A stretch of 36,492 bases of DNA from Pseudomonadota bacterium (GTDB lineage: Bacteria; Pseudomonadota; Alphaproteobacteria; Rhodobacterales; Rhodobacteraceae). The stretch is taken from NCBI GenBank assembly GCA_027592105.1, contig JAQCLA010000003.1:1-36492 (forward strand), in the 5' to 3' direction. The notes below the pieces were generated by a model, which made no database searches, was not told the DNA's origin, and saw only the letters and a list, made by a program, of their open reading frames with translations. The translations under genes and the position numbers were made by a program. Shown in pieces: positions 234 to 24,914 of the stretch (position 1 is the stretch's first letter; the number at the start of each line of letters is the position of its first letter).

Positions 234-557
234 ATGCGAGATTTCGTTGATGGCACTGCCTTCAACTTCGAACAAGGCCAGCGCGCGCGCAAGCTTTTTG
301 CCGCCGTGGTGCTTGCTGCTTTGGATGATGCCATTGCAGATGACAAAAAATACGGCAACGGCCCCGAGCAGATCGCCCGCTGGGCGCGCTCGCGCGATGG
401 CCGCGAAGTGCTGAGCTGTGCGGGTATCGACCCCAATGAGCGCGTCGTTCAGGGCTTGATGTGCTTCGTGTCGCGCGGCGTGCGGACTTCGGTCGCGCTC
501 AGCCGTGAAGAGAGTGAGCGCCGCAGCCAAGCCGAGGCGGAAGCCGAAGCCGCCTGA
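234..557 (+). CDS. small conserved hypothetical protein (resembles the DUF6280-type family of Rhodobacterales)
   Basis: ORF 153..557; ATG at 234 preceded by AAGGA; translation MRDFVDGTAFNFEQGQRARKLFAAVVLAALDDAIADDKKYG...; followed by a terminator hairpin. Confidence 0.6.
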   Translation: MRDFVDGTAFNFEQGQRARKLFAAVVLAALDDAIADDKKYGNGPEQIARWARSRDGREVLSCAGIDPNERVVQGLMCFVSRGVRTSVALSREESERRSQAEAEAEAA

Positions 558-595
558 TTGCCGTGTCGCCGCGCAAGCGGCTACCGCACCCCAAG

Positions 596-622
596 AACGC
601 GCCCCTCGCCGGGCGCGTTTTT
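596..622 (+). terminator. rho-independent terminator
   Basis: AACGCGCCC-CTCGCC-GGGCGCGTT followed by TTT, 39 nt after the upstream CDS stop. Confidence 0.8.
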
Positions 623-653
623 CGTTTTGACGGGCCGTGTGTCAGCTGATTGT

Positions 654-739
654 TGGTGCGGGCGGGGGGACTTGAACCCCCACGGCACAAAGGCCCACGG
701 ATTTTAAGTCCGATATGTCTACCATTCCATCACGCCCGC
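654..739 (-). tRNA. tRNA-Leu (anticodon UAA)
   Basis: Reverse complement GCGGGCGTGATGGAATGGTAGACATATCGGACTTAAAATCCGTGGGCC...GTGGGGGTTCAAGTCCCCCCGCCCGCACCA: 7-bp acceptor stem, T-loop GTTCAAGTC, long variable region, anticodon loop CTTAAAA, encoded CCA. Confidence 0.95.
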
Positions 740-1074
740 AACGCATCTTGGCTAACGGCTTGGGCGGGGATTGGCAATCGCTTGGGCGCGCGGGATGCCA
801 CGCATCGCGCTTTGCGGGTTTTTCACCCTGTTTCATGCCATCTTTATGTAGCGTCACACACGCGTCCTGCGCCCGCAAGCGGCCCGCTGTTGCCGCATTT
901 TCATCAGGGCGCAGAGTGAAAATGCCAGTAATTCAAGCATTAGCGCGGTCTTGAACGTTTGGGATATACCCTATTGCAACATACCTCCCAAGGTATCAAC
1001 ACAACGTCAGGATTTCGCCGCACGCGGTAAGGTGATATCAAGGCACAGCACCTTATCGCTACAAGGCCAATGGA

Positions 1075-1773
1075 ATGACCCTATCGTATCGCTACAATCC
1101 GCAGGCAAAGCCACAGACGGTCCTATACGTTCGCCTTTCGACGACAGAGCAAACCATCAGCGCACAGCGCCAGCAGGCTGAAAGCCTCGGCTACGTGGTT
1201 GATAAGGTCATCGAGGATCACATTGTGCCGGGTGTGACCACCGCATTTCTGGATCGTGAGGGTGGTCAACGTCTCTTCGCCACCTTGCGGGAGGGGGATG
1301 TTTTATTGGTGCGATGGCTGGATCGCTTGGGTCACAACTATGACGATATCCAGCGCATCATGGGCCTGTTTTTTGAGCGTGGCGTGACCATCAAGACGTT
1401 GATCAACGAGCTGACGTTCGACGCGCAACCAAAAGACGCCGAACAAAAAGCATTGCGCGATGCCATGATGTCTTTCATGTCGGCCATGGCACATGCGCAG
1501 GCGACTGCGAACCGTGAGGCACAAGCCGCAGGCATCGCCAATGCCAAGGCGCGCAACCCGACAGCCTACAAGGGTCGTAAACCTTCTTATACCCAAGAAA
1601 ACATAGATCAAATCCGCCAGATGTCCGGCGATGGTCTGGGTGTGAATGAAATTGCCCGGCGGTTGGGTTTGAGCAAGTTTCTGGTGTCACGCATCAACAA
1701 AGACACAACAGCGGCTTACGAGGCGCTCGAGCGTTGGGGCATCAACGCTGAACCGCACTCCAAAAAAGTGTAA
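1075..1773 (+). CDS. serine recombinase / resolvase family protein
   Basis: N-terminal YVRLSTTEQTISAQRQQ (catalytic Ser motif), VRWLDRLGHNYDDI, C-terminal HTH (GLGVNEIARRLGLSKFLVSRI). Confidence 0.9.
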   Translation: MTLSYRYNPQAKPQTVLYVRLSTTEQTISAQRQQAESLGYVVDKVIEDHIVPGVTTAFLDREGGQRLFATLREGDVLLVRWLDRLGHNYDDIQRIMGLFFERGVTIKTLINELTFDAQPKDAEQKALRDAMMSFMSAMAHAQATANREAQAAGIANAKARNPTAYKGRKPSYTQENIDQIRQMSGDGLGVNEIARRLGLSKFLVSRINKDTTAAYEALERWGINAEPHSKKV

Positions 1774-1796
1774 TTTCTGTCATCCCCGCCGTCGCC

Positions 1797-2336
1797 CTAA
1801 TGGCCGTCGAAGGCGCACAGCGCGTGGACAGGCACGCCCATCGCCTCAAGCCGCGCGCGGCCGCCCAGTTCGGGCAGGTCGATGACGAAGGCGCAGCCCA
1901 CGACCTCGGCGCCCAAGGCTTCAACCAGCCGAATACCCGCCTCGGCCGTGCCGCCCGTGGCCAGTAGATCATCGACGAGCAGCACCTTTTGACCTGGCGC
2001 CAGCGCGTCGTCATGAATCTCGACTGTCGCGCGGCCGTATTCGAGGGTGTAATCCTGTGCGATGGTGGCAGCGGGCAGCTTGCCTTGTTTGCGGATCGGC
2101 ACGAAACCCTTGGAGAGTTGATGGGCCACTGCGCCGCCGAGGATGAAGCCGCGCGCCTCGAGCCCCACCACCATATCGATCCGTTCGCCCACGAATGGGG
2201 CGAGCAGCTGGTCGACCGCAAGCCGAAAGCCGCGCGGATCTTGGAAGAGCGTGGTCACATCGCGAAACATGATCCCTTCATGGGGAAAATCCGGGATGGT
2301 GCGGATATAGTCTTGGATCGATTTCTGGCTCGGCAT
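1797..2336 (-). CDS. apt: adenine phosphoribosyltransferase
   Basis: [34 protein letters not shown]...[17 protein letters not shown] (PRPP-binding motif). Confidence 0.95.
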
Positions 2337-3855: not shown

Positions 3856-4448
3856 CTTGGCCGCGCGATCAGCCCATCGAGATGGGCGCGGATGACCGGC
3901 CATTCCTGCGCGGTGATGGAATAGACCGCCGTGTCGCGGATCGTGCCATTGGGCGAGGTTTGATGCGCGCGCAAGATACCGTCGAGCTGTGCGCCCAAAC
4001 GCTCGATCGCGCGGCGCGATTGGCTATTCAGGCGGTGGGTGCGAAACTCGACCGCGAGGCAGGACCAGATCTCGAAGGCATGGCCCAGCAAAAGGCGCTT
4101 GGCCTCGGTGTTGAGCGGGCCGCGCTGGGCGGAAGGCGCGATCCAGGTCGAGCCGATCTCGACGCGCGGCGTGGCGTGGTCGATATTCATGTAGCTGGTC
4201 ATGCCGATGGGCGTGCCGGATGCATCGAGCTGAGTGAAGGGGATCATCGCGCCGATATCGCGCAGGCGCAGGCGGCGGTCGATCTCGGCCAGCATGCCCG
4301 TGGGTGCGGGGATGGCCGTGTACCACAGCTTGTGCAGATCGCCTGCCGCGCTGGCCTCGGACAGTGGTTCGGCATGCATGCGGTCAAGCGGTATCAAGGT
4401 GACTTGACGGCCGCGCAGGGTCAGGTTCGGGGGGCCAAGGCGGTTCAT
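3852..4448 (-). CDS. GNAT family N-acetyltransferase
   Basis: MNRLGPPNLTLRGRQVTLIPLDRMHAEPLSEA...GSTWIAPSAQRGPLNTEAKRLLLGHAFE...VEFRTHRLNSQSRRAIERLGAQLDG. Confidence 0.85.
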   Translation of the reverse strand: MNRLGPPNLTLRGRQVTLIPLDRMHAEPLSEASAAGDLHKLWYTAIPAPTGMLAEIDRRLRLRDIGAMIPFTQLDASGTPIGMTSYMNIDHATPRVEIGSTWIAPSAQRGPLNTEAKRLLLGHAFEIWSCLAVEFRTHRLNSQSRRAIERLGAQLDGILRAHQTSPNGTIRDTAVYSITAQEWPVIRAHLDGLIARPR

Positions 4449-6253
4449 TCCACGGTCACCGATTTGGCGAGGTTGCGGGGCTGGTCCACATCGGTGCCTT
4501 TGGCAATCGCGGTGTGATAGGCCAAAAGCTGTGCGGGGATGGCATAGACCAAGGGCGCGGCCAGCCGCCCTGCGGCGGGCAGGGTCAGGGTGGCTTGCGT
4601 GCCCTCGGCGGCGATGGCGGCACCGGCCGCATCGGTGATCAGCGTGACCTGACCGCCGCGGGCCATCACCTCTTGCATATTCGAGACGGTCTTGTCGAAG
4701 AGCGCGTCATGGGGGGCAAAGACCAGCACGGGTAGGGTGCGGTCGATCAACGCGATGGGGCCGTGTTTCAGCTCGCCCGAGGCATAGGCTTCGGCGTGGA
4801 TGTAGCTGAGTTCTTTGAGTTTCAGTGCCGCCTCAAGCGCTGTCGCATACATCACGCCGCGCCCGAGAAACAGGGCCGAGCGCGCCTCGGCCAGACCGGC
4901 GGCGATGGCAGCGATCTCGGGCTCGCAGGCGAGCGTTTGGCGCATCTGGTCGGGGACATGGCGCAGCGCGTCGAGTTCTTGCCCGATCTGGGCTGGTGTC
5001 AGCGCGCCGCGCTGGCCCGCCGCATGCAGTGCCAAAAGCGCCAGCACGGCCAGCTGGTTTGTATAGGCTTTGGTCGAGGCGACCGAAACCTCGACCCCTG
5101 CCAAGATCGCCAGCGCCACATCGCTTTCGCGCGCGATGGATGAGGTGCCCACATTGACGAGGCTTGCCACCATCTCGGCCCGTCCGCGCAGGTAGCGAAG
5201 CGCTGCCAGCGTATCGGCAGTCTCGCCTGATTGGCTGACGACAAGGGCCAGCGTGCGCGGGGCCAAGGGCGGCTCGCGATAGCGGAATTCCGAGGCGACA
5301 TCGACCTCGCAAGGGATGCCTGCGACCTGTTCGAACCAGTATTTCGCGGTCAGGCAGGAATAATAGCCCGTGCCGCAGGCCACCATCACAACCCGGTCGA
5401 AGCGCGAGAAATCGAGGCTTTCGGGAAAGACCGGCAGCGCGCCCGGCGCGTAGCGGGCCAGCGCCTCGGCCAGCACGCGGGGCTGTTCATGGATCTCTTT
5501 GGCCATGAAATGCTTGTAGCCCGCCTTGTCGATTACGGCGGCGCCGATCTCGATCCGGGTTTTGGGGCGGCTGGCGGGGGCGCCGGTTTCATCGAAGATC
5601 TCGGCGCCTTTGCGGGTGATGAAGGCGATGTCGCCCTCGTCAAGATAGGTGATCTGATCGGTCATGGGCGCCAGCGCGATGGCGTCAGAGCCGACATACA
5701 TCTCGCCCTCGCCATGACCAATGGCCAAGGGCGAGCCACGCCGCGCGGCGATCAGCAGATCATCATGCCCATCGAACAAGAAACACAGCGCAAAGGCCCC
5801 CTCGAGCCGCGCGATGGTGGCCTTGGCCGCCTCACGCGGGGTCATGCCGCCCGCCATGAAACGCGCGCAGAGATGGGCGACGGTTTCGGTGTCGGTTTCG
5901 CTTTCGAAATTGGAGCCCGCAAGCTCGGCCCGCAATTCGCGGTAATTCTCGATGATGCCGTTATGAACCACAGCCACGGAGCCGTTTTGATGGGGGTGGG
6001 CGTTGGCCTCGGAGGGCGCGCCATGGGTGGCCCAGCGGGTATGCCCGATGCCGGCCTTGCCCGGCAGCGGCTCATGCACCAGCCGGTCGGAGAGGTTGAT
6101 CAGCTTGCCCACCGCGCGGCGGCGGTCGAGGTGACCGTTTTGCAGGGTCGCGATGCCCGCGCTGTCATAGCCGCGATATTCCAGCCGCTTGAGCGCCTCG
6201 AGGATCAGGGGGGCGACCTCATGGCTGCCCAGAACGCCGACGATACCGCACAT
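4445..6253 (-). CDS. glmS: glutamine--fructose-6-phosphate aminotransferase (isomerizing)
   Basis: MCGIVGVLGSHEVAPLILEALKRLEYRGYDSAGIA...; SIS domains; C-terminal NLAKSVTVE. Confidence 0.98.
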   Translation of the reverse strand: MCGIVGVLGSHEVAPLILEALKRLEYRGYDSAGIATLQNGHLDRRRAVGKLINLSDRLVHEPLPGKAGIGHTRWATHGAPSEANAHPHQNGSVAVVHNGIIENYRELRAELAGSNFESETDTETVAHLCARFMAGGMTPREAAKATIARLEGAFALCFLFDGHDDLLIAARRGSPLAIGHGEGEMYVGSDAIALAPMTDQITYLDEGDIAFITRKGAEIFDETGAPASRPKTRIEIGAAVIDKAGYKHFMAKEIHEQPRVLAEALARYAPGALPVFPESLDFSRFDRVVMVACGTGYYSCLTAKYWFEQVAGIPCEVDVASEFRYREPPLAPRTLALVVSQSGETADTLAALRYLRGRAEMVASLVNVGTSSIARESDVALAILAGVEVSVASTKAYTNQLAVLALLALHAAGQRGALTPAQIGQELDALRHVPDQMRQTLACEPEIAAIAAGLAEARSALFLGRGVMYATALEAALKLKELSYIHAEAYASGELKHGPIALIDRTLPVLVFAPHDALFDKTVSNMQEVMARGGQVTLITDAAGAAIAAEGTQATLTLPAAGRLAAPLVYAIPAQLLAYHTAIAKGTDVDQPRNLAKSVTVE

Positions 6254-6256
6254 GGT

Positions 6257-7630
6257 TTAACCTTTCCTACCCGCCTTGATGGCGCGCAAACGCTCCATCA
6301 GGCGGATTGCCAGACCGGGCTTGTTGACCTGCTTGGCGCGGGCCAAGGCCAGCGCGCCGGGGGCCACATCCTCGGTGATGACCGAGCCCGAGGCGGTCAT
6401 GGCGCGATCGCCAAGGCTGACGGGGGCCACCAGCATGGTGTTGGAGCCGACAAAGACATCGCGCCCGATCATGGTGCGATGCTTCATCACGCCATCATAG
6501 TTGCAGGTGATGGTGCCGGCGCCGATATTGCTACCGTCCCCAATCTCGGCATCGCCGATATAGCTGAGGTGATTGACCTTGGCTCCTTCGCCGATCTGGG
6601 CCTCTTTCACCTCGACGAAATTGCCGATGCGCGCGTCATTGCCGATTTCCGCGCCGGGGCGCAGGCGGGCATAGGGGCCGATCACCGCGCCCGCGCTGAC
6701 ATGGCACCCCTCAAGATGGGAGAAAGCGCGGATGCGCGCGCCGCTTTCTACCGTGACGCCAGGGCCGAAGACGACATGCGGTTCGATCTCGGCATCGCGG
6801 CCGACCCATGTATCTTGCGCGAAAATCACGGTCTCGGGGGCTTGCATGGCGACGCCATCGGCCAGCATTGCGGCACGGCGGGCGGCTTGAAAGGCAATCT
6901 CGGCCTGGGCGAGCTCGGTACGGGAATTGATGCCCAGCGTTTCAGCCTCGGGGCAAAGAATGGCGGTGGCAGAAAGGCCCTCGGCCATGGCAAGGGCGGG
7001 CAGATCGGTAAGGTAATATTCGCCCGCCGTGTTGTGGTTGCCGACCGCGCCCAACAGGCGCAGCATGGCCGCCGCATCGCCCGCCATCAGCCCGGAATTG
7101 CAGATGGTGACGGCGCGCTCTGCCTCGGTCGCATCCTTGGCCTCGACAATGCGCAAAAGCTTGTCGCCATCCATGATAAGCCGCCCATAGCGACCGGGAT
7201 CGGCGGCATCGAAACCTAACACGACGATATCGTGATGCGCGCGCGCGGCCTGCATCGCGGCAAGGGTTTCCTCTGAAATGAAGGGTGTATCGGCGTAAAG
7301 CACGATCAGGCCGCCGGAAAAATCGGACAGGAGGGGGGCGGCTTGCAAGACGGCATGGCCGGTGCCCAGTTGTTCCTCCTGCCGGACGCATTCGGCCCAA
7401 GGGGCAAGGTCGGTGACGGTTTTCTCGACCATATCGGCCCCGTGGCCGGTGACGACGATGATGCGTGCGGGCGACAGGCTGCCCGCCGCGGCCAGCGCAT
7501 GCGCGATCAGCGGCACGCCGCCCAGCTTGTGCAGCGGTTTAGGCAGATCGGAATTCATCCGCGTGCCTTGGCCCGCGGCCAGCACGACCACTGCGATCGG
7601 CCGCTCCTCGCCCCTGTCCGAATTATCCAC
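6257..7630 (-). CDS. glmU: bifunctional UDP-GlcNAc pyrophosphorylase / glucosamine-1-P N-acetyltransferase
   Basis: VVVLAAGQGTRMNSDLPKPLHKLGGVPL plus left-handed beta-helix hexapeptide repeats. Start ambiguous: GTG at 7630 preferred over ATG at 7699. Confidence 0.95.
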   Translation of the reverse strand: MDNSDRGEERPIAVVVLAAGQGTRMNSDLPKPLHKLGGVPLIAHALAAAGSLSPARIIVVTGHGADMVEKTVTDLAPWAECVRQEEQLGTGHAVLQAAPLLSDFSGGLIVLYADTPFISEETLAAMQAARAHHDIVVLGFDAADPGRYGRLIMDGDKLLRIVEAKDATEAERAVTICNSGLMAGDAAAMLRLLGAVGNHNTAGEYYLTDLPALAMAEGLSATAILCPEAETLGINSRTELAQAEIAFQAARRAAMLADGVAMQAPETVIFAQDTWVGRDAEIEPHVVFGPGVTVESGARIRAFSHLEGCHVSAGAVIGPYARLRPGAEIGNDARIGNFVEVKEAQIGEGAKVNHLSYIGDAEIGDGSNIGAGTITCNYDGVMKHRTMIGRDVFVGSNTMLVAPVSLGDRAMTASGSVITEDVAPGALALARAKQVNKPGLAIRLMERLRAIKAGRKG

Positions 7631-7753: not shown

Positions 7754-8419
7754 ATGCGCTGTGTGATCTTCGATTTGGATGGGACATTGGCCGATACGGC
7801 CGGTGATCTGATCGCTGCTGCCAATGCCGCCTTGGGCGCAATGGGCCATGCGCCGCAATTGGTGATGGGGCGCGATGATGCGACCGCGCTGCGCGGTGGG
7901 CGGGCGATGCTGCAACTTGCGGCCGACCGGATGGGGATGGTGCAGGCCGCGCCGATGATCGCTGCGGGCTATCCGCTTTTGTTGGCGGCCTATGGTGATG
8001 CGATCGACCAGCATACCACGCTTTACCCCGGCGCGATGGACGCGGTGGCCCGGCTGAAGGCGCGCGGCATCGCGGTGGGCATTTGCACCAACAAGCCCGA
8101 GGGTCTGGCCGAGACGCTCTTGACCCGGCTGGGCGTCAGGGCGGAATTCGCGGCCCTTGTCGGGGCCGACACATTGCCCCTGCGCAAGCCCGACCCAGCC
8201 CCGTTTTTCGAAGCCGTGGCGCGCGCAGGCGGTGCAAGGGGGCAATCTTGCCTGATCGGCGATACTGTCACCGACCGCGAGACGGCGCGCGCGGCGGGCC
8301 GACCATGTGCCTTGGTGACATTCGGACCCTTGGGCCAATCGGTGGCCGATTTGGCCCCCGAGGCATTGATCGACCATTATGACGCGCTGGATGGGGTAAT
8401 CGACCGGCTGCTTGGCTGA
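7754..8419 (+). CDS. gph: phosphoglycolate phosphatase / HAD-IA hydrolase
   Basis: MRCVIFDLDGTLADTAGDL...GICTNKPEGLAETLL...LIGDTVTDRETARAAG (HAD motifs). Confidence 0.85.
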   Translation: MRCVIFDLDGTLADTAGDLIAAANAALGAMGHAPQLVMGRDDATALRGGRAMLQLAADRMGMVQAAPMIAAGYPLLLAAYGDAIDQHTTLYPGAMDAVARLKARGIAVGICTNKPEGLAETLLTRLGVRAEFAALVGADTLPLRKPDPAPFFEAVARAGGARGQSCLIGDTVTDRETARAAGRPCALVTFGPLGQSVADLAPEALIDHYDALDGVIDRLLG

Positions 8420-8463
8420 TCGGGGCATTGACGCGGGCCTTTTGGCACTCAATTCTGTGACCT

Positions 8464-9672
8464 ATGGAAAAACCTGTCTTCACCGGCAATTTCACCCAGC
8501 AAGAACCCATCCCCGAGGCGGCGATTGCGGCCGCGCTGGATGTGATGCGCTCGGGGCGATTGCATCGCTATAACCTTTTGCCCGACGACGAGGGCGAGGT
8601 GGCCGCATTGGAGCGCGAGTTTGCCGCCTTTACCGGCGCGCGCTTTGCGCTTGCCGTGGCCTCGGGCGGATATGCGATGAGTTGCGCGATGCGCGCAATC
8701 GGTGTGCAGGCGGGCGATAAGATCTTGTCCAATGGCTGGACATTGGCGCCTGTGCCGGGGGCGATTGCAAGCCTTGGGGCCATTCCCGTTTTCGTCGAGA
8801 CGACGCAGGATTTGACCATCGATCTTGACGATCTTGCCCACAAGGCGCGCGAAAGCGGCGCGCGGGTGCTGCTGCTCAGCCATATGCGCGGCCATATCTG
8901 CGATATGGACCGGCTGATGACGATTGCGTGCGCCCATGATCTGCAGGTGATCGAGGATTGCGCCCATACGATGGGGGCGGCATGGCAGGGTGTGGCATCG
9001 GGGCGGCATGGGGTGGTCGGCTGCTATTCGACCCAGACCTATAAGCATATCAATTCCGGCGAGGGCGGGCTGATCGTATCGGATGATCCCGCGATCATGG
9101 CCCGCGCAGTGGTTTTGTCGGGTTCCTACATGTTTTATGGCAAACACACCGCCGCGCCCCCCGTTGAAATGTTCGAAAATGTAAAGTATGAGACGCCCAA
9201 TATCTCGGGGAGGATGGACCATCTGCGCGCCGCGATCTTGCGCCCACAGCTTGCCGCACTCCCCCAGCAGGTCGCGCGCTGGAACGCGCTTTACCGGATG
9301 TTGGAGGTGGGCCTGCGCAATATCGCGGGGCTGCGTGTCATCGAACGGCCGCCACAGGAAAGCATCGTGGGATCGTCGTTTCAGTTCCTTTTGCCCGATT
9401 GGCCCGCCGATCGGATGCGCGCGCTGCTTGCGGCTTGCGCCGTGCGGGGGGTGGAGTTGAAATGGTTCGGTGCGGCCGAGCCTGTGGCCTTTACCTCGCG
9501 CTATGATAGCTGGCGCTTTGCGCCGCCCCAACGCTTGCCGCGCACTGATGCGATCCTTGCCGGGCTGATCGACATGCGCTTGCCGCTGACCTTCTCGGAG
9601 GCCGATGTGCACATGATTGCGGAGATCATCCGCGATGAGGTAGTGGGCGCTAGCACACAAGCGGCGGAGTGA
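8464..9672 (+). CDS. DegT/DnrJ/EryC1/StrS family aminotransferase
   Basis: VIEDCAHTMGAAWQGVASGRHGVVGCYSTQTYKHINSGEGGLIVSDD: PLP-binding region with putative Schiff-base Lys. Confidence 0.9.
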   Translation: MEKPVFTGNFTQQEPIPEAAIAAALDVMRSGRLHRYNLLPDDEGEVAALEREFAAFTGARFALAVASGGYAMSCAMRAIGVQAGDKILSNGWTLAPVPGAIASLGAIPVFVETTQDLTIDLDDLAHKARESGARVLLLSHMRGHICDMDRLMTIACAHDLQVIEDCAHTMGAAWQGVASGRHGVVGCYSTQTYKHINSGEGGLIVSDDPAIMARAVVLSGSYMFYGKHTAAPPVEMFENVKYETPNISGRMDHLRAAILRPQLAALPQQVARWNALYRMLEVGLRNIAGLRVIERPPQESIVGSSFQFLLPDWPADRMRALLAACAVRGVELKWFGAAEPVAFTSRYDSWRFAPPQRLPRTDAILAGLIDMRLPLTFSEADVHMIAEIIRDEVVGASTQAAE

Positions 9673-23438: not shown

Positions 23439-23999
23439 TTAGCCGGTTTCGCCACCCGCAGCCAGCGCGGGGTCCCATAGCGCCAAGCCAAGCTGTTGGG
23501 CCGCGGCCAGTGACAAGATCTCACTATCCAGGCCTTGTGGTGCTTGAAACGCGCGGATCGCGCGCGATGTGCGGCGGTTCATCTCGCCCGTGATAGGCCC
23601 GCCATAATGCCCGCGCGCGCTGAGCGCGCGTTGCAGCGAGGCGATGAAATCGCGATCACCCGCTTCCAAGGCGCAAGGCACTTCGAACCATAATTCGCGC
23701 CGCTCGGTCACGATACGCTGATGGGTTTCGGTCACGAAGATTGCGGGTTCGCGCAGGCTGCCATCGGTATCGATCTGCGGTGGTTGAAGCATCACCTGTT
23801 CGGTCACGGTCTCGATCACCGCCGGGGTGGATTTGCGGCCATAACAGGCCAGCGGGTCGGCATCGGGTGGCCCTGCACCGCGCAAGACCTCGACCGCCCC
23901 TTCGCCCGCGATCAGCGGATTGGCAAAAGCATCGCGATCGGCCGCGGGCATGCAGGCGGCAAGGGCCAGAAGCCCGGGGCAAAGAATGGTCAGGCGCAT
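23439..23999 (-). CDS. lipoprotein with peptidoglycan-binding-like domain
   Basis: MRLTILCPGLLALAAC lipobox; FIASLQRALSARGHYGGPITGEMNRRTSRAIRAFQAPQGLDSEILSLAAAQQLGL (PG_binding_1-like). Confidence 0.8.
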   Translation of the reverse strand: MRLTILCPGLLALAACMPAADRDAFANPLIAGEGAVEVLRGAGPPDADPLACYGRKSTPAVIETVTEQVMLQPPQIDTDGSLREPAIFVTETHQRIVTERRELWFEVPCALEAGDRDFIASLQRALSARGHYGGPITGEMNRRTSRAIRAFQAPQGLDSEILSLAAAQQLGLALWDPALAAGGETG

Positions 24000-24080: not shown

Positions 24081-24461
24081 TCAGGGTTGATCGGCGGCGC
24101 GTGCGGGTTCATGCAGCCGCACCAATTCATCAAGCAGTGCCGAGATATCCTCGACCTCATCGGCCACCACATGGGTGACACCAGATTGGCGCTGCAACCG
24201 GCCGGTCACCCGCAAAAGCCGCCCCGCGATCACCGCGCGGCGAAACCGCTGGTAGATCTTTTGCCAGACGATCACATTGCATACCCCGAACTCATCCTCG
24301 AGCGTGATGAAGATCACGCCTTTGGCCGTGCCGGGACGTTGGCGCACCAGCACAAGACCCGCCACCGCCACCCGCGCCCCTTCGGGCGGCAGGTGCAGCA
24401 TGTGATGGGGCAGGCACACGGGCGGGCGTGGCCAAGTGGGGGGATGAATTTGTGGCTCCAT
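24081..24461 (-). CDS. stand-alone DnaE2 C-terminal OB-fold segment (truncated error-prone polymerase remnant or mini-gene)
   Basis: [78 protein letters not shown] matches the C-terminal tail of DnaE2; no PHP, palm or finger domains in the window. Confidence 0.75.
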
Positions 24462-24463
24462 GA

Positions 24464-24478
24464 GAACAAAGATAGAAC
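24464..24478 (-). promoter_or_regulatory. LexA (SOS) box, alphaproteobacterial GTTC-N7-GTTC
   Basis: Minus strand GTTC-TATCTTT-GTTC (plus: GAACAAAGATAGAAC), ending 2 nt before the ATG of the DnaE2-like ORF. Confidence 0.8.
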
Positions 24479-24542
24479 ATTTATCTGTGACCACAAGCCC
24501 GGCAATTCGGGCTGGAAAGCAGCCCAAGGGCATATTACCTAA

Positions 24543-24914
<372 letters not shown>

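Follow-up and report, generated by a model that had tools for sequence, protein, structure and literature searches.

The standalone OB-fold gene analysed here, from the Rhodobacteraceae genome Pseudomonadota bacterium GCA_027592105.1 (positions 1-36,492 of contig JAQCLA010000003.1, referred to as the window), is best explained as one half of a split dnaE2, whose product would act in trans as an SOS-induced OB subunit of a DnaE2-ImuB mutasome; we place the probability of this reading at roughly 0.78. The SOS translesion polymerase DnaE2 would in this lineage consist of two polypeptides, an OB-less core comprising the polymerase and HhH parts and a separate OB-fold subunit (Table 1).

Table 1 Features in the window at and around the standalone OB-fold gene.
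Feature	Position	Strand	Details
Standalone DnaE2 OB-fold gene	24081..24461	-	ATG at 24461, stop codon 24081-24083, 126 aa
OB domain and N-terminal WPRPP motif	within the 126-aa protein of 24081..24461		OB domain about residues 22-113; motif residues 10-14
LexA box GTTCTATCTTTGTTC	24464..24478	-	perfect GTTC-N7-GTTC, ends 2 bp before the OB-gene ATG
Probable -10 element TATCTT, inside LexA box	24469..24474	-	inferred; TATnTT conserved inside the box
Probable -35 element TTGTGG	24491..24496	-	inferred; 16 bp upstream of the -10 element
2Fe-2S ferredoxin gene, divergent neighbour	24591..24914	+	PF00111, E=5.8e-14; marks the ancestral OB-gene site
Putative peptidoglycan-binding protein, downstream neighbour	23439..23999	-	PF01471, E=6.3e-7; site marker outside the system

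The 126-aa protein matched positions 948-1039 of the 1047 in the NCBIfam DnaE2 model NF004225 (PRK05672; E=1e-31), and the best DnaE1 model was far weaker (E=1.5e-7); its score of 109.9 bits on NF004225 does not reach the cut-off of 939 bits, which applies to whole proteins. The OB-fold family PF01336 was matched with E=4.5e-11 (43 bits versus a Pfam cut-off of 27), and the SSB family PF00436 stayed at 12.5 bits, under its Pfam cut-off of 26. The scores on the DnaE2 model and PF01336 ruled out an unrelated OB family and uphold the first-pass annotation, which had taken the open reading frame for the C-terminal OB-fold of DnaE2. An AlphaFold model showed the strand-helix order of an OB-fold at low confidence (mean pLDDT 59.6), and because of this low confidence its fold matches to the OB-folds of RPA, CST and SSB and to AspRS are indicative only; a search of solved structures by sequence gave no meaningful match.

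The remainder of dnaE2, imuA and imuB are missing from the window, as that annotation had also stated, and a dnaE2 core and an imuB-like gene were found elsewhere in the assembly (2.74 Mb, 377 contigs, 78% complete). The core, on contig C3 (locus L005, 1498-4440), scored 1206-1207 bits on NF004225 and covered positions 5-938 only, ending in a genuine stop codon; the part that it lacks (948-1039) is the part encoded by the window gene. Since the core stops just before the start of the OB-fold, dnaE2 is split into two genes. A LexA-like box, GAACAAAAGGTGAAT, directly precedes the start of the core, and an ImuB-like protein is encoded on contig C121 beside the box GTTCATGTTTTGTTC. No imuA-imuB pair was seen beside this core or beside three other split cores for which flanking open reading frames were listed. 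The ImuA model NF033429, which is confounded by RecA, gave two matches in the genome, one of them likely RecA. At locus L127, an imuB-like gene (287-1984, minus strand) lies apart from dnaE2 with its own LexA box at 2004-2018 and no recognised imuA beside it.

The same division recurs across the family. Among 298 Rhodobacteraceae genomes, one per genus, searched with the OB protein and the DnaE2 model, with hits cross-tabulated and then corrected by targeted search and by reading loci one by one, OB-less DnaE2 was assigned to about 131, the truncated core end having been read directly in about 30 genomes and inferred in the others from a score below that of full-length proteins. About 128 of these 131 carry a separate OB gene; none was detected in G045, from whose assembly the ferredoxin neighbour is also missing, or in G162 and G100, and G143 was assigned to neither group. 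Full-length DnaE2 was found in 121 genomes, plus about ten more in which it is fragmented or lower-scoring, and these genomes are without the OB gene except for genuine standalone OBs in G035, G238 and G295. A truncated core is present as well in G035 and in G295 (in the latter as a contig-edge piece), and a broken remnant of one in G238; the OB match of G178, at first sight a fourth case, seems to be part of a full-length gene. Roughly 35 genomes are DnaE2-less, and the OB gene occurs in only one of them, G052, the single clear break in the co-occurrence: its OB gene (locus L205, 1659-2039) is intact and has a LexA box, and the genome lacks a DnaE2 core. The culturable Roseicyclus mahoneyensis is among the carriers of the OB gene (locus L112). 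In a class-wide sample, OB matches outside Rhodobacteraceae lay in frames longer than 1000 aa, that is, in fused proteins; the two exceptions, in shorter frames, were G634, which has a second, fused copy, and G709, close to the end of a contig. The order-level search sampled Rhodobacteraceae again. These distributions indicate a split DnaE2 with near-complete complementarity of core and OB gene.

An alternative interpretation is that the OB domain left DnaE2 and works alone, as an independent SOS-induced single-strand DNA-binding protein that does not join the polymerase. The intact gene and LexA box of G052 leave room for such a role, given that a core is missing there, and the low-confidence fold matches the OB-folds of RPA, CST and SSB, but we consider this unlikely because the OB gene nearly always accompanies an OB-less DnaE2 and is missing elsewhere, because DnaE2-type signature residues are kept, and because the OB gene of G002 has decayed alongside a full-length DnaE2. 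The split-polymerase reading has points against it too, namely the OB gene without a core in G052 and that of G238, beside a broken core and a full-length DnaE2. A second alternative, that the OB domain is dispensable, with the OB-less core complete as a polymerase and the OB gene maintained as a minor accessory for some other reason, draws on the lack of an OB domain in some C-family polymerases (PMC3919608) and on the cores without a detected OB gene in G162 and G100. However, the absence is weakly supported in both genomes because the assemblies are 84% complete (G100) and broken into 320 contigs (G162), and co-occurrence is otherwise almost complete; we regard this second explanation as quite improbable.

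The surroundings of the OB gene point to a single ancestral site beside the ferredoxin gene, which divergently adjoins it in 81 of 84 loci; a peptidoglycan-binding gene lies nearby in many relatives. In fused-DnaE2 genomes with recognisable neighbours, the ferredoxin gene stands directly beside the peptidoglycan-binding or degP gene, and the site between them holds neither an OB gene nor a LexA box. These empty sites ruled out that an imuA-imuB-dnaE2 cassette was deleted locally at the window site, and with it the earlier suggestion that a deletion had fused the SOS promoter of such a cassette to the end of dnaE2. At the gene itself, dN/dS was 0.07-0.20 at dS of 0.34-1.0 (window gene versus 16 relatives), which indicates purifying selection rather than decay of the OB gene. 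The related idea of a decaying scar, in which a deletion joined an SOS promoter to the dnaE2 end, would suit a fragment that comprises the C-terminal domain only, with the remainder outside the window, but it is hardly credible and was refuted by this selection, by the retention of the gene in about 130 genera and by the empty ancestral site in fused relatives. The proposal that the OB-fold had been kept as an independent SOS protein survives in part: retention is borne out by dN/dS and by the spread across genera, and a free-standing orphan is the poorer reading given the OB-less core in the same genome. Four genomes of about 2-2.5 Mb (G284, G172, G033 and G092; loci L206-L209) also have their OB gene at the ferredoxin site and preceded by a perfect LexA box, but it is divergent (38-51% identity) and without the WPRPP motif.

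The box before the window gene is the only perfect GTTC-N7-GTTC match in the window, where chance alone would give about 0.9; by itself it is therefore not significant, and its meaning rests on comparison across homologues. A perfect GTTCTATnTTTGTTC-like box lies just upstream of 80 of 84 OB genes (79 plus locus L025), against a background frequency of 0.108 per kb, and across the 84 loci its end is most often 2-3 bp from the start codon. Chance occurrence, possible from the window alone, was ruled out by this conservation, and the ATG does sit directly on a LexA box as first described. TTGC or TTGT is conserved at the -35 position in most of 45 aligned loci, and a conserved TTG lies about 20 bp upstream of the TATnTT inside the box, an arrangement in which LexA would cover the -10 element and the OB-gene transcript would start at or near the ATG. 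Split dnaE2 cores have a conserved box of their own, GAACAAAAnGTGAATATA, and in 19 of 21 no more than one of its eight fixed bases is mismatched, a level reached by 5.9% of random windows. LexA-type boxes accompany the OB gene, the dnaE2 core and the imuB-like gene at separate loci, from which we infer that the OB gene is SOS-induced upon DNA damage.

In the mechanism that we propose for the split polymerase, DNA damage would inactivate LexA, and the OB gene, the core and imuB would be derepressed together; the OB protein would then bind the single-stranded template, join the DnaE2-ImuB mutasome non-covalently and restore in trans the role that the domain has in cis in other DnaE2s. Binding of single-stranded DNA, physical association in trans and docking are predictions from sequence. 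DnaE2-type OB signature residues are largely common to standalone and fused OBs, and an N-terminal motif of the type W-P-[RK]-P-P occurs in 73 of 85 standalone OBs versus 1 of 50 fused proteins, counts that are not independent because close relatives are among the 85. This standalone-specific motif is a candidate docking element and might be the point at which the OB protein docks. We advance more tentatively, and at somewhat worse than even odds, the further idea that the OB domain, with a LexA promoter and a WPRPP docking motif of its own, is a subunit titrated separately, whose supply controls error-prone synthesis; if true, this would make DnaE2 a natural case of a split C-family DNA polymerase whose OB subunit acts in trans.

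Damage-induced mutation in many bacteria is the work of DnaE2 mutasomes, but little is known of what the OB domain adds to them. The roughly 130 genera in which core and OB are separate, together with fused relatives, intermediates and natural losses, form a natural experiment, and because the two are separate the role of the OB domain can be tested directly by simple gene deletion; a large set of apparently OB-less DnaE2s would in fact be two-component. Our search of openly accessible papers found no description of a two-gene DnaE2 core/OB arrangement, and to that extent agrees with the first-pass view that a stand-alone OB-fold version was undescribed. Full-length DnaE2 (ImuC) and the ImuA-ImuB-DnaE2 mutasome share with the present system the polymerase family, the OB domain, its signature residues and LexA-type control, with an ImuB-like gene in the present genome too, but here the OB domain is encoded apart from the core, at another locus and with a LexA box of its own, and imuB lies at its own locus, apart from dnaE2, rather than in a cassette. 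Several DnaE2 sequences without an OB domain were described by Timinskas et al. 2013 (PMC3919608); they resemble the cores studied here, for which the missing domain was found in trans, whereas the sections of that paper dealing with them mention no separate OB gene. A 2026 survey (PMC12926913) describes many mutasome variants, and a separate OB gene is absent from its relevant passages; the standalone ImuB-C proteins of DnaE2B systems presented there are likewise cases of a mutasome domain as a separate DnaE2-linked protein, but ImuB-C is another domain (the ImuB C-terminal one) and comes from other lineages. The DnaQ/epsilon proofreading exonuclease offers a precedent for a C-family polymerase function that can be a domain of the polymerase or reside in a subunit of its own, although it is an exonuclease and not, as here, a DNA-binding OB domain.

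A tree of DnaE2 cores placed the split cores in one group with the fused DnaE2 of G279 as their sister (support 82), and the OB of G279, at 68% identity, is unusually near the standalone OBs. The core of G195 falls near the base of this tree in an unresolved position. At its locus (L074), a gene in the opposite orientation separates the core (4001-7219) from an OB gene 1 kb downstream (about 8174-8729); this detached OB has its own LexA box, GTTCTTGGTATGTTC, and retains the conserved DnaE2 tail, HPRDQAKRLFPSRDFH, at its end, and the arrangement is likely an intermediate of the gene split. The detached OB of G085 keeps part of the DnaE2 tail and lies away from the ferredoxin gene, with a LexA box upstream of its long frame, and two split cores end in a DnaE2-like tail (HPRNVRFFS and HPRNMRHFA). 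In the simplest history, the OB would have detached with a LexA promoter and moved beside the ferredoxin gene and the core would have lost its OB, in one or a few events.

Later arrivals of full-length dnaE2 were accompanied by decay of the OB gene in G002 or of the core in G238. In G002, which has a full-length DnaE2, a degenerate OB-gene remnant is left at the ferredoxin site (L184, about 2139-2258). The plasmid-borne imuA-imuB-dnaE2 cassette of Dinoroseobacter shibae (PMC9426580) agrees with the idea of mobile full-length cassettes, of which the one on contig C4 of G035 would be an example. In G295, the core of the full-length DnaE2 (L094) is nested in the split clade, and the OB gene is without a LexA box in a genome that also holds the truncated core fragment; this full-length dnaE2 is possibly a secondary fusion. 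The fused DnaE2s of one group (L088-L107) end in a conserved C-terminal tail, HPREQAKKLFPSRDFH, which could be a binding motif.
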